Shown here in pieces: positions 44,729 through 47,042 of a DNA stretch of 64,000 bases. This DNA comes from Bdellovibrio sp. ZAP7 (GTDB lineage Bacteria; Bdellovibrionota; Bdellovibrionia; Bdellovibrionales; Bdellovibrionaceae): contig NZ_CP030082.1 in the NCBI RefSeq assembly GCF_006874645.1, positions 1,364,001 to 1,428,000 of the forward strand. The letters run 5' to 3'. The position numbers were made by a program, and so were the translations under genes. Under the pieces are notes generated by a model that did no database searches, was not told the DNA's origin, and saw only the letters and a list, made by a program, of their open reading frames with translations. Position 1 is the first letter of the stretch. The number at the start of each line of letters is the position of its first letter.

Positions 44729-45133
44729 TTAAGACTGGAAAATGGATCTTAGAGTTTCGAAATGTTCCTTTAGCTCCATGAACTGCTGAGCGTTTCCGCC
44801 GTGGTCGGGGTGGAGTCTTAAAGCTGCCTGACGAAAGGCTTTTCTCAATTCAGTCTCTGTAAAACCCTCTGACAAACCATGGATCCAGCATTTGAAAAAC
44901 TCAAAAGCTTGGCTTTGTGCCGGGGAAAAAGAGTGGGGCTTGCGCTGTGGACGAACTGCTGGGCGAGGATATTGTCCACGTGGAGTTTGCAGTTCTGTCT
45001 TATTAATCTGACCTAAAAGATAGGCTAAATGGATCGGATCGGAGTCCATGACAGAAGAGTAATTTGCTTGGATCGTTGGGGTCTCACCCATCTTTTCGCG
45101 CAAAATTTGTTTGAAACTCGTCTGAAAACTCAT
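44729..45133 (-). CDS. J-domain protein (C-terminal DnaJ domain)
   Basis: 134 residues. Unlike canonical DnaJ, the J domain is at the C-terminus: E-L-R-K-A-F-R-Q-A-A-L-R-L-H-P-D-H-G-G contains the H-P-D tripeptide that stimulates Hsp70 ATPase. The N-terminal 70 residues are basic and Pro/Gln-rich. It would recruit DnaK (10175) to a specific client. A 16-bp perfect palindrome (45147-45162) sits 13 bases upstream of its start. Confidence 0.85.
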   Translation of the reverse strand: MSFQTSFKQILREKMGETPTIQANYSSVMDSDPIHLAYLLGQINKTELQTPRGQYPRPAVRPQRKPHSFSPAQSQAFEFFKCWIHGLSEGFTETELRKAFRQAALRLHPDHGGNAQQFMELKEHFETLRSIFQS

Positions 45134-45146
45134 GCCTTTCTATTCG

Positions 45147-45162
45147 GAAAACCATGGTTTTC
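45147..45162. promoter_or_regulatory. 16-bp perfect palindrome, operator-like
   Basis: GAAAACCATGGTTTTC lies just before the J-domain gene (minus strand) and could be a dimeric repressor site. No regulator can be assigned. Confidence 0.4.
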
Positions 45163-45191
45163 AAGGAGTCTAGAGGTGTGAGGTGGATCAA

Positions 45192-45296
45192 AATTAGACC
45201 TTTTTCCCTCGAGAAAAGGCGGTTTCTCGAGGGAAAACAGGCGTTTTTCGACGTGAAAAGGCCGTCTTCAGAGGGAAAAATGCGGTTTTTAGAGGG
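45192..45296. repeat. Five degenerate 21-bp tandem repeats
   Basis: Units at 45192, 45213, 45234, 45255 and 45276, each 21 bp, with the consensus GAAAA-N2-GCGGTTTTT-N-GAGGG in the best copies. Because the period is a multiple of three, the minus strand stays open and would encode a seven-residue repeat (P-S-K-N-R-I-F). Copies 1 and 2 contain a perfect 15-bp inverted repeat (45202-45216 with 45223-45237). It lies between the divergent J-domain and SWIB genes. Confidence 0.75.
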
Positions 45297-45330
45297 GGTG
45301 CGAAAAAAAATGGGGGTCCTGCATTTTTTT

Positions 45331-45359
45331 TTGGACAAACGCCTAGACTTGGATACACA
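45331..45359 (+). promoter_or_regulatory. Sigma-70-type promoter of the SWIB gene
   Basis: TTGGAC (45331-45336), a 17-base spacer and TACACA (45354-45359). The leader of about 45 bases ends in GGAGG before the ATG. Confidence 0.55.
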
Positions 45360-45410
45360 CTTAACTCATTCGAGATAAACAAGACAATAATCCTAACGGA
45401 GGAATTAACA

Positions 45411-45824
45411 ATGGCAAAAGCTACTAAAAAAGCTACTACTAAGAAAGCTGCTCCAAAAAAAGCTGCAGCTAAAAAAGCAACTACTAAAAAAGCTGCTCCA
45501 AAAGCAAAAGCTACTACTAAAAAAGCAGCTCCTAAAGCTAAAGCAGCAAAAGCTCCTAAAGCTAAATCTGCTCGCAAACCAAATGCAGCATTCATGAAAG
45601 CTTTGACTCCATCTGCAGCTTTGGCAGCAGTTGTTGGTGCTTCTCCACTTCCACGTACTGAAGTTGTTAAAAAACTTTGGGCTTACATCAAGAAGAACAA
45701 TCTTCAAGATTCTAAAAACAAACGTAACATCAATGCAGACGCAAAACTTAAAGAAGTTTTCGGCGGCAAAACTCAAGTTAGCATGTTCGACATGACTAAA
45801 CTAGTTTCTAAGCATCTTAAATAG
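45411..45824 (+). CDS. Histone H1-like / SWIB-domain DNA-binding protein
   Basis: 137 residues. Residues 1-60 are almost only Lys, Ala, Thr and Pro in short repeats (K-K-A-T-T, A-A-P-K), like the C-terminal tails of eukaryotic H1 and chlamydial Hc proteins. Residues about 65-137 form a SWIB/MDM2 domain (L-P-R-T-E-V-V-K-K-L-W-A-Y-I-K-K-N-N-L-Q-D ... V-S-M-F-D-M-T-K-L-V-S-K-H-L). The same combination is known in Chlamydiae and some environmental bacteria and is assumed to bind DNA. A strong ribosome site and a terminator suggest high expression. Confidence 0.88.
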   Translation: MAKATKKATTKKAAPKKAAAKKATTKKAAPKAKATTKKAAPKAKAAKAPKAKSARKPNAAFMKALTPSAALAAVVGASPLPRTEVVKKLWAYIKKNNLQDSKNKRNINADAKLKEVFGGKTQVSMFDMTKLVSKHLK

Positions 45825-45844
45825 ATCTTAGTTATCTAAGAGTG

Positions 45845-45875
45845 AAAAAAGCCCGGGTGACCGGGCTTTTTTTTT
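45845..45875 (+). terminator. Rho-independent terminator after the SWIB gene
   Basis: GCCCGG / CCGGGC stem around GTGA, flanked by six As and nine Ts, 20 bases after the stop. Confidence 0.9.
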
Positions 45876-45886
45876 GCCTTCGTGTC

Positions 45887-46011
45887 GGGATGGTTGAAAA
45901 GCGGCCATCTGCTGCGTTGGAGCGGGCCGTCCTCGCTCCAACGTACATTGAGTACGCCTGCGCTGCGGGCGGCCCACTCCGCCTTGCAGCTGACCACTTT
46001 TGAACCATCCC
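45887..46011. repeat. 125-nt imperfect palindromic element
   Basis: The ends GGGATGGTT (45887-45895) and AACCATCCC (46003-46011) are exact inverse complements. The next about 35 bases of each arm pair with scattered mismatches (AAAAGCGGCCA / TGACCACTTTT, GGGCCG / CGGCCC). The GC-rich centre holds a further imperfect hairpin (TCCAACGTAC ... GTACGCC). No gene lies here. It resembles dispersed palindromic repeats seen in other proteobacteria. Confidence 0.75.
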
Positions 46012-46019
46012 TCGGGCCA

Positions 46020-46260
46020 GTGTTTTACGATCACGGTATTCTATGGCTGGCTGGCCCTTTCGGGCGCCGCTGTTTTGGCTGGCCGTCGCCTTTCGGCGAC
46101 TTGGCGCCGCTTTTGGGGTGGGAGTGGGGAGCTTGTTCCTTAGGAACTCGCTGATTGTTCAGGTTTTTGTCTCAGTTTTTTGGGGTGGACTCGGCTTTTG
46201 GTTCTGGGGTTGCGGTTCTTTCGTTTGGGTAATCCTTGGCTTGGAAGTGGGAGGGGGGTG
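46020..46260. other. G/T-rich non-coding stretch
   Basis: No gene seen between the palindrome and map. The plus strand is unusually rich in G and T, and small hairpins occur (GGCCCTTTCGGGCGCC; GTCGCCTTTCGGCGAC). It may be decayed repeat DNA. Confidence 0.4.
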
Positions 46261-46269
46261 TGTTATACC
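46241..46269 (+). promoter_or_regulatory. Promoter of map, predicting a leaderless mRNA
   Basis: TTGGAA (46241-46246), a 17-base spacer and an extended minus-10 TG-T-TATACC (46261-46269). A start point 6-8 bases later falls at or next to the ATG at 46278, and no Shine-Dalgarno sequence precedes that ATG. Confidence 0.55.
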
Positions 46270-46277
46270 TTCTTCCT

Positions 46278-47042
46278 ATGGGAATTAAGCCTCTTTCTCT
46301 TGAAGAGATCAAAAAAATGACTGTGGCCTGCAGGATTGCGGCTGATACTCTTACTTATCTTGAAAAGTATGTGAAAATTGGAATCTCTACTCAGGAGATT
46401 GATGAGCTTGCTAATGATTTCATGCAAACTCGTGGGGCTAAGTCGGCTTGTCTTGGTTACCATGGATACCCTAAGTACACTTGTACGTCTGTGAATGAAG
46501 TTGTTTGTCATGGGGTGCCTGATTCTTCTGTAATTCTTAAAGATGGCGACATCATCAATGTGGATGTGACGGCTTGGATTGATGGGTTCTTTGGGGATAC
46601 TTCGCGTATGTACATGATTGGTGATGTTTCTGATGAAGCACGCGATCTTGTGGAAACTGCGCAGTTGGCTCGTGACAAGGGGATTGAGGCGATCACTCCT
46701 CGTGGTTTTACGGGTGATATTGGATTTGAAACTTATAAGTATGTGACTCGCAAAGGCTACACGGTCGTTAAAGAGATCGGTGGACATGGCGTGGGGCGTA
46801 CTTTCCACGATGAACCTTTTGTTCCCGCATTCGGTAAAAAGGGTAAGGGCGAGCGCCTGGTTCCTTTTCACTGTATCACTGTGGAACCGATGGTGAATCA
46901 AGGTGTTGAGGATGTGGTGGAGTTTGCTATTCCGAATTCTTCTATCAAGTACTACAACACGGCGGATGGGAAATTGTCGGCTCAGTATGAGCACACCGTG
47001 CTTGTTACGGATACCGGCTACGAAATCCTGACTCTTCCATAA
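46278..47042 (+). CDS. map: Methionine aminopeptidase, type I
   Basis: About 254 residues. Removes the initiator methionine from nascent proteins. The five metal ligands can be placed: D-V-T-A (Asp), G-F-F-G-D-T-S (Asp), G-H-G-V-G-R-T-F-H (His), T-V-E-P-M (Glu) and Y-E-H-T-V (Glu). The substrate His is in E-V-V-C-H-G-V-P. ATG 46278 gives the expected N-terminus (M-G-I-K-P-L-S-L-E-E). The codon use differs from its neighbours (many T-ending codons). The next gene, ahcY, starts 43 bases later. Confidence 0.95.
   Translation: MGIKPLSLEEIKKMTVACRIAADTLTYLEKYVKIGISTQEIDELANDFMQTRGAKSACLGYHGYPKYTCTSVNEVVCHGVPDSSVILKDGDIINVDVTAWIDGFFGDTSRMYMIGDVSDEARDLVETAQLARDKGIEAITPRGFTGDIGFETYKYVTRKGYTVVKEIGGHGVGRTFHDEPFVPAFGKKGKGERLVPFHCITVEPMVNQGVEDVVEFAIPNSSIKYYNTADGKLSAQYEHTVLVTDTGYEILTLP

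Follow-up and report, generated by a model that had tools for sequence, protein, structure and literature searches.

A palindromic DNA repeat oriented with replication in Bdellovibrio, with relatives in several phyla

Several families of short palindromic repeats have been described in bacterial chromosomes. MITEs such as Correia/NEMIS, ERIC, Chunjie and QMITE2 are reported as short, non-coding sequences with inverted-repeat ends and many intergenic copies, with QMITE2 mostly in 3′ UTRs (PMC10969869). REP, BIME and REPIN sequences and TIR repeats, associated with RAYT and TIRYT, are dispersed palindromes behind genes (PMC3733652, PMC6006769), and GTAG REPs often provide the stop codon (PMC3733652). 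The R0 and R2 repeats of Pseudomonas fluorescens SBW25, intergenic hairpins of 89 and 110 bp, are termed MITE-like, the bias reported for them being toward convergent gene pairs (PMC2718517). Intergenic multicopy sequences, some of them palindromic in Geobacter bemidjiensis, have also been described in G. bemidjiensis and Pelobacter carbinolicus, in the same broad group (PMC2996986, PMC3543383).

The repeat analysed here works like a MITE in being short, non-coding and amplified, with an enzyme that would act in trans. It is below 500 bp, has no coding capacity and occurs in many dispersed copies, as MITEs do, but since Bdellovibrio copies showed neither fixed terminal repeats nor duplicated targets, full membership is not established there. 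In contrast to the MITEs described in PMC10969869, its arms covary instead of forming a fixed repeat, its copies are polar with respect to replication, and the same core recurs in several phyla; the words "orientation", "leading strand" and "replication" do not occur in the available text of that review. Like REP and TIR repeats, it is a dispersed palindrome found behind genes, but it exceeds 120 nt, compared with the 20–40 (or 21–65) nt described for them. At 125–127 nt, without a GTAG/CGTC tag and with no linked Y1 transposase found, it does not fit the REP/RAYT description. Likeness to the SBW25 repeats and to the Geobacter and Pelobacter sequences was judged from their descriptions, not from sequence, and the latter are unnamed and not tied to polarity in the parts of those papers that describe them. 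Although E. coli carries ERIC (PMC10969869), an E. coli collection gave no blastn match at E ≤ 0.01, and we rejected identity with that repeat. Polarity, covarying arms and hairpin-length duplications set the element apart from MITEs and REPs as these sources describe them (PMC10969869, PMC3733652, PMC6006769, PMC2718517, PMC2996986, PMC3543383).

Structure of the palindrome and its family

The window, a 64,000-nucleotide stretch of Bdellovibrio sp. ZAP7, contains one copy between a SWIB-domain gene and an M24 metallopeptidase gene, which is named map (methionine aminopeptidase) from its family and from the name used in the first-pass annotation (Table 1). That annotation had described a 125-nt imperfect palindrome with exact 9-bp ends and long mismatched arms before map, and this is confirmed. 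The arms, at 45887–45912 and 45986–46011, 26 nt each, are 85% complementary with 73 nt between them, and the outermost GGGATGGTT/AACCATCCC pair exactly over 9 bp. Conservation across the family extends to several of the inner mismatches. Its view of a cruciform-capable, dispersed and non-coding intergenic element also holds, as the segment 45880–46018 beats 200 of 200 dinucleotide shuffles when folded as RNA (z −5.9) or as DNA (z −4.9), only short six-frame ORFs (68 and 90 aa) cross it, and many copies exist. An Rfam scan of 45000–47000 gave 21 matches at E ≤ 10, none at its gathering score. No terminator was called between 45800 and 46320, in a scan that also missed the visible SWIB hairpin; an intrinsic terminator would have a short, GC-rich stem-loop with a T run immediately after it, whereas the element forms a hairpin of 125 nt that includes conserved mismatches. 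The window copy is atypical in its position, 62 nt past the SWIB stop and behind the terminator-like hairpin. Its orientation, TGAAAA side first, is the direction of replication.

Other imperfect repeats lie nearby. Upstream of the SWIB gene, at 45190–45300, short units resembling CTCGAGGGAAAA and AAAAGGCGGTTT can be recognised by eye, and the gap between the element and map contains species-variable GGCTGGC/GGCGCCGC repeats (46044–46114).

Table 1. Features of the element and its surroundings (positions in the window)
Feature	Position	Strand	Basis or remark
Upstream gene, SWIB/MDM2-domain protein (PF02201)	45411..45824	+	
Terminator-like hairpin of SWIB gene, 12-bp stem then T run, just upstream of element	45845..45872	+	
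Element core, 125-nt imperfect palindrome	45887..46011	+	Arm pairing, blastn copies, covariance model
5′ outer arm GGGATGGTT	45887..45895	+	Complementary to 3′ outer arm; sequence varies between copies
TGAAAA	45895..45900	+	Invariant in 17 aligned copies
Central hairpin CGTACATTGAGTACG	45942..45956	+	Retained across phyla
TTTTG (invariant) and A (nearly invariant), 3′ side	45998..46003	+	17 aligned copies
3′ outer arm AACCATCCC	46003..46011	+	Partner of 5′ outer arm
Probable T-rich 3′ tail	46012..46032	+	Inferred by comparison with other copies
Downstream gene, M24 metallopeptidase (PF00557, E 2e-43)	46278..47042	+	

The family has a layered anatomy. An outer stem of 7–9 bp, variable in sequence, encloses TGAAAA/TTTTGA, in which a conserved G-G mismatch breaks the symmetry; further inward are a long stem with conserved mismatches and the motifs CTG.TGCGTTG, CGTAC...GTACGCC and CCGCCTTGC, and, at the centre, a small hairpin. 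In many copies the 3′ arm is succeeded by a T-rich tail, for example TTGGTTTTCGGTTTTGCG, and a similar tail stands behind both units of a tandem pair in genome G012 (L404).

Copies with covarying arms, for which the first-pass annotation had proposed a genome-wide search, were found in sets of 17 and of 46. Among the 17, 23 of 39 pairs changed on both sides, and the covariation score was 0.492, compared with 0.170 for shuffled data (0 of 500 shuffles reached the observed value) and 0.07–0.12 for slid structures. The larger set comprises 46 distinct copies of the genus, limited to those of L025–L077 and L403–L422 with an intact TGAAAA/TTTTG core. Its outer 8 bp are variable, occurring as 37 arm sequences, and are Watson-Crick paired in 344 of 368 cells, as against 197.6 ± 8.2 with swapped arms; only 4 cells are G-U, and pairing drops to chance past about 9 bp. 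The scarcity of G-U pairs would fit a DNA hairpin, or correction of one arm from the other as template, better than an RNA helix.

Orthologous copies at nine loci gave 118 compensated and 62 one-sided pairwise position differences, counts in which identical changes appear in several pairs and from which G010 at the map locus, where one base is deleted in each arm, was omitted; a degenerate copy in G025 (L035) was scored as one-sided. In the closest pair, the ZAP7 genome (G000) and G027, changes are compensated at L033 and L027 and one-sided at map, L042 and L029, the recent one-sided mutations lying in G027 at map and L042 and in G000 at L029. One arm carries an extra hairpin-like insertion at L008, L015 and L021, and in G024 at the map locus.

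Copies, age and orientation

The first-pass annotation had made its reading depend on a second copy in this or a related genome, and the ZAP7 genome contains about 25–29 copies at 71–84% identity by blastn, a range taken from the 20 matches other than the element itself, down to E 0.006. With itself included, there are 24 matches at E ≤ 1 and 22 at E < 0.01. A covariance model built from 17 copies (R1) gave 40 rows at E ≤ 0.1, some of them reverse-strand shadows, and matched 13 of 20 genomes, the ZAP7 genome included; at E ≤ 0.001 it had no match in G003 and G004, which are of the same genus. Within the phylum, a cross-phylum model from 39 sequences had matches in 40 of 144 genomes, representing 21 of 93 genera. 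In the GTDB collection, a search with a pattern of 26 fixed bases found at least 120 rows, from which 80 loci were retrieved, and the matches listed came from Deltaproteobacteria/Desulfobacterota, Methylomirabilota/Rokubacteria, Gemmatimonadetes (Gemmatimonadota), Peptococcaceae, one Bdellovibrio (MAG) and a few others. Eight MAGs from this set have 12–146 matches each at E ≤ 1e-5, possibly including reverse-strand doubles, and in the Geobacteraceae-type family 11 of 35 genomes, counting the central one, were matched at E ≤ 1e-8. The sole plasmid match is on pBdHAGR2 of Bdellovibrio sp. HAGR004 (L426; AP029178.1, 32509–32616), where the copy starts exactly at the end of an annotated CDS. Phage sequences gave no match at E ≤ 0.01. 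Searches of the open-access literature yielded no description of the repeat, and the family is an old, widespread and apparently unnamed group of short non-coding DNA repeats.

The Bdellovibrio copies are old: the best pairwise alignment score is 0.84 among 19 copies of the ZAP7 genome and 0.87 among 24 of G012, and no recent insertion or duplicated target was found within the genus. The suggestion in the first-pass annotation that presence and absence be compared among relatives proved productive. At the map locus, where orthologous loci were read by eye in 16 of 24 genomes, 10 contain the element and 6 lack it. When 18 of 27 ZAP7 copies were compared with G027, G025, G011 and G010, sites were occupied, empty or partly deleted, and some absences are losses, since arms are shared at L030 and a remnant of L034 persists. 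We also considered whether the outer arms were palindromes already present at the insertion site. Element-free sites in Bdellovibrio show no such palindromes by eye, and the finding that both arms change together in orthologous copies also counters this reading.

Many copies lie directly behind genes. In 31 of 46, no more than 8 nt separate the base of the stem from the stop codon of an open frame in the same orientation (TAA in 18, TAG in 12, TGA in 1); 3 more are within 40 nt, and 12 have no co-oriented stop in that range. Of the 30 TAA or TAG stops, 16 are preceded by C, 6 by G, 5 by T and 3 by A. Among genes of this genome, C precedes TAA or TAG in 25%, and TGA makes up 16% of stops. YTAR is present at 21 of the 30 TAR sites of the Bdellovibrio copies, although the ends of the element differ there from IS5-family-like ends.

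Orientation follows replication. The ZAP7 chromosome opens, as read from the sequence, with a DnaA frame followed by DnaN, RecF and GyrB, and its GC skew switches between 2.07 and 2.15 Mb; 28 of 29 copies are on the + strand before the switch and on the − strand after it, and the sole exception, L044, follows its upstream gene. This count omits reverse-strand shadow rows and five weak rows at four places (E 0.004–0.09), of which one would be an exception, two agree and one matches both strands. With the origin assumed at base 1 and the terminus at half length, all 86 copies listed in three further genomes are polar (G002, 26/26; G006, 21/21; G012, 39/39), as are 5/5 in G005, but only 3/7 in G007. 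These are the listed among 36, 32, 52, 17 and 13 matches, respectively, totals that may include reverse-strand doubles, and counts across the Bdellovibrio genomes are partly dependent because copies are shared by descent. Under the same assumption, three genomes read by eye and kept out of the polarity totals gave 19/19 (G021, one clean switch), 7/12 (G024) and 0/8 (G025); if its origin is at base 1, G025 is fully polar but deposited the other way round.

Elsewhere the pattern varies. Two Geobacter-type genomes are largely polar: 19 of 21 copies listed among 26 matches in G066, which has a DnaA frame at its start and a switch set at 2.9 Mb from noisy skew, and 11 of 13 listed among 18 in G047, with origin at about 0.95 Mb and terminus at about 2.7 Mb by skew; each has two exceptions. 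In a Methylomirabilota MAG, GC skew read in the orientation of the element is positive for 16 of 20 flanks (p 0.012), in an analysis in which two of the 20 G032 stretches overlap. Near-identical copies in a Peptococcaceae MAG show no polarity (12/20). A first look at orientation in 78 of the 80 cross-phylum loci (L225 and L238 omitted) gave 52 to 26.

Gene orientation as the sole cause of this polarity was ruled out. By simple ORF calls in 20 sampled stretches, only 219 of 364 genes (60%) are co-directional with replication, too few to yield 28/29, and elements with an opposed upstream gene (L029, L036, L043, L051 and, less clearly, L031) are nonetheless oriented with replication. The polarity suggests that the element is mobile and that its movement or survival is linked to copying of the chromosome.

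Younger relatives and the search for an enzyme

Relatives in other lineages look mobile. The Peptococcaceae MAG has 34 matches, 27 of which span at least 175 of 187 nt at 98–100% identity. CTAG stands at both ends, with unrelated flanks, in 7 of 8 copies of one set and at 15 of 15 loci of another, in which at least two loci represent a single place found on two contigs. Most Methylomirabilota copies start with YTAR-CAGGCTGCTGAAAAA and end with its inverse, and several, but not all, have the same YTAR on both sides. Terminal inverted repeats are exact in Peptococcaceae and largely so in Methylomirabilota, whereas the Bdellovibrio arms are complementary but variable.

In the Geobacter-type genome G066, six of 20 fetched copies have the start GAGTCTGATGAAAAAG in common, and the six best pair scores among the 20 (0.89–0.94) all fall inside this set. 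Five of the six (L467–L471) have a complete terminator hairpin on both sides, of 27, 19, 30, 19 and 28 nt, with left and right identical or one base apart and T-rich sequence after the right-hand hairpin; in the sixth, L474, the hairpin is visible on the left only. Flanking direct repeats of at least 12 nt occur in 7 of 157 copies scanned in mixed lineages, namely these five, L212 (14 nt) and L281 (12 nt); no Bdellovibrio locus is among the seven. The flanking hairpins in G066 appear to be a target duplication whose length is set by the hairpin.

If the element moves, which enzyme moves it? No autonomous partner was found in the element-bearing genomes searched. Ten Y1 genes are present in the ZAP7 genome, two of them within about 400 bp of a copy, but a Y1 partner was rejected: G012, with 52 element matches, has no Y1 gene at E ≤ 0.001, the element is matched, and weakly, at only 1 of 20 Y1 loci, and the neighbouring genes have repeats of their own. 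A home-made Y1 profile, seeded by 14 of the 20 loci, missed two known Y1 genes and carries little weight. Inside and around the two neighbouring Y1 (PF01797) genes, at L038 (about 525.6 kb on G000:C1) and L025 (about 3041.1 kb), are the repeats TGACCGATACCC and GGGTATCGGTCA, which are probably the recognition repeats of those genes. Reverse transcriptase was rejected as a common partner, 5 of 14 element-bearing genomes having no PF00078 match at E ≤ 0.001.

Ends resembling those of the younger relatives occur on IS5-family insertion sequences (NF033581) with CTAGCAGGCTGTTGAAAAA ends, which have the end sequence and the YTAR-type target of the Methylomirabilota and Peptococcaceae copies. Three of 133 plasmid records were examined for this comparison. 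On a Microvirga lotononidis plasmid (L424), a transposase that passes the NF033581 model lies in an insertion sequence bounded by CTAGCAGGCTGTTGAAAAAGTC and, on the opposite side, its inverse, and a Rhizobium gallicum plasmid (L423) has, by eye, an open frame and flanking ends that resemble these. Neither of the two insertion sequences was seen to contain the core palindrome, and the Bdellovibrio arms do not match their ends. A Paracoccus ferrooxidans plasmid (L425) carries an element of about 160 bp whose ends are similar and which lacks such a frame. The Microvirga transposase had no relative in 16 element-bearing genomes, in a search run without a positive control, and an end-only match in G031 was rejected as an autonomous copy, as no open frame recognisable by eye as a transposase was present.

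Origin of the element

The explanation that we favor, at somewhat better than even confidence, is that the palindrome is an old copy of a non-autonomous, MITE-like mobile element that used a transposase supplied in trans and whose entry or survival was coupled to replication. An element of about 127 bp with a tail of roughly 17–30 nt would have spread through bacterial chromosomes in this way. In Bdellovibrio and Geobacter-type lineages, the lagging-strand template may be where the strand reading TGAAAA...TTTTGA entered or persisted, since it can form a hairpin there. Among insertions at [C/T]TA[A/G] or at the feet of terminators, those immediately behind stop codons would have survived, as these did not damage the gene, and pairing of the arms may be maintained at the DNA level, either by a need for the hairpin or by template-directed correction between the arms. 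Direct support comes from the multicopy family, its common anatomy in several phyla, presence and absence at loci, covarying arms, starts directly after TAA/TAG in most copies, and polarity; only young relatives show exact ends flanked on each side by CTAG or YTAR, or a terminator hairpin duplicated in full. Against this explanation stand the young Peptococcaceae copies without polarity, the age of the Bdellovibrio copies, the finding of no recent insertion or duplicated target in the genus and of no partner enzyme, the empty sites that look like losses, the recent one-sided arm mutations, the exceptions to polarity in G000, G066 and G047, and the mixed orientations of G007 and G024 under an assumed origin.

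An unlikely alternative is that the host keeps the element as a polar chromosome site, at which the hairpin serves replication, segregation or nucleoid organisation and wrong orientations are removed by selection. This would fit the near-absolute polarity of old copies alongside its absence in young Peptococcaceae ones, as well as the conservation of inner sequence and mismatches across phyla, but the distribution is patchy at the level of genomes and genera, same-genus genomes without a match exist, and the same locus is present, absent or decayed in close species. Still less probable is a transcribed element at mRNA 3′ ends, a terminator, stabiliser or RNase target selected behind genes. The closeness of most copies to co-oriented stops, the stable RNA fold and the T-rich tails speak for this reading; against it, copies beside opposed genes follow replication and not the gene, leading-strand genes are too few to account for the polarity, G-U pairs, common in RNA helices, are rare in the arms, and the window copy sits behind an intact terminator-like hairpin and matches no Rfam family at its gathering score.

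Two further alternatives concern the enzyme. It is improbable that the repeat is a REP-type element mobilised on the lagging strand by a Y1 (HUH) transposase in the manner of IS608 and ISDra2. Its polarity, its hairpin form, the two Y1 genes close to copies and the lagging-strand insertion described for Y1 enzymes (PMC6006769) speak for this reading. Against such a partner stand the genomic distribution of Y1 genes, the separate repeats of the neighbouring ones and the lack of a GTAG/CGTC tag, and Y1 transposition is not known to duplicate targets. A possible but doubtful attribution, which overlaps with the MITE-like explanation and names its enzyme, is that the repeat is a MITE of an IS5-family (DDE) element. 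The ends CTAG-(C/G)AGGCTG(C/T)TGAAAAA and YTAR flanks of the Methylomirabilota and Peptococcaceae copies and the plasmid insertion sequences argue for it, but the Bdellovibrio arms are too variable for a fixed terminal repeat, the Microvirga transposase remained unmatched, and polarity and hairpin duplications are left unexplained.

Returning to the MITE-like element with replication-coupled entry or survival, one may tentatively go further and envision a cross-phylum class of non-coding elements that moves by recognition of DNA structure and not of sequence, inserts at the feet of hairpins such as terminators while duplicating the whole hairpin, enters a single replication strand in some lineages, and keeps its freely drifting arms complementary by correction at the DNA level.

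Replication polarity, position at stop codons, the 3′ tail and spread over several phyla all go beyond what the first-pass annotation had noted. Where the origin of a Bdellovibrio genome is known or plausible, the replichore of a copy can be told from its strand, which makes the element a practical marker, and the question arises whether polarity is set at insertion, into a single-stranded lagging template, or by later loss. The element would represent a repeat family that is widespread, apparently without a name, and naturally informative on the replication strand, and its combination of a conserved core, free but complementary arms, polarity and hairpin-length duplications makes the origin of bacterial palindromic repeats directly testable.
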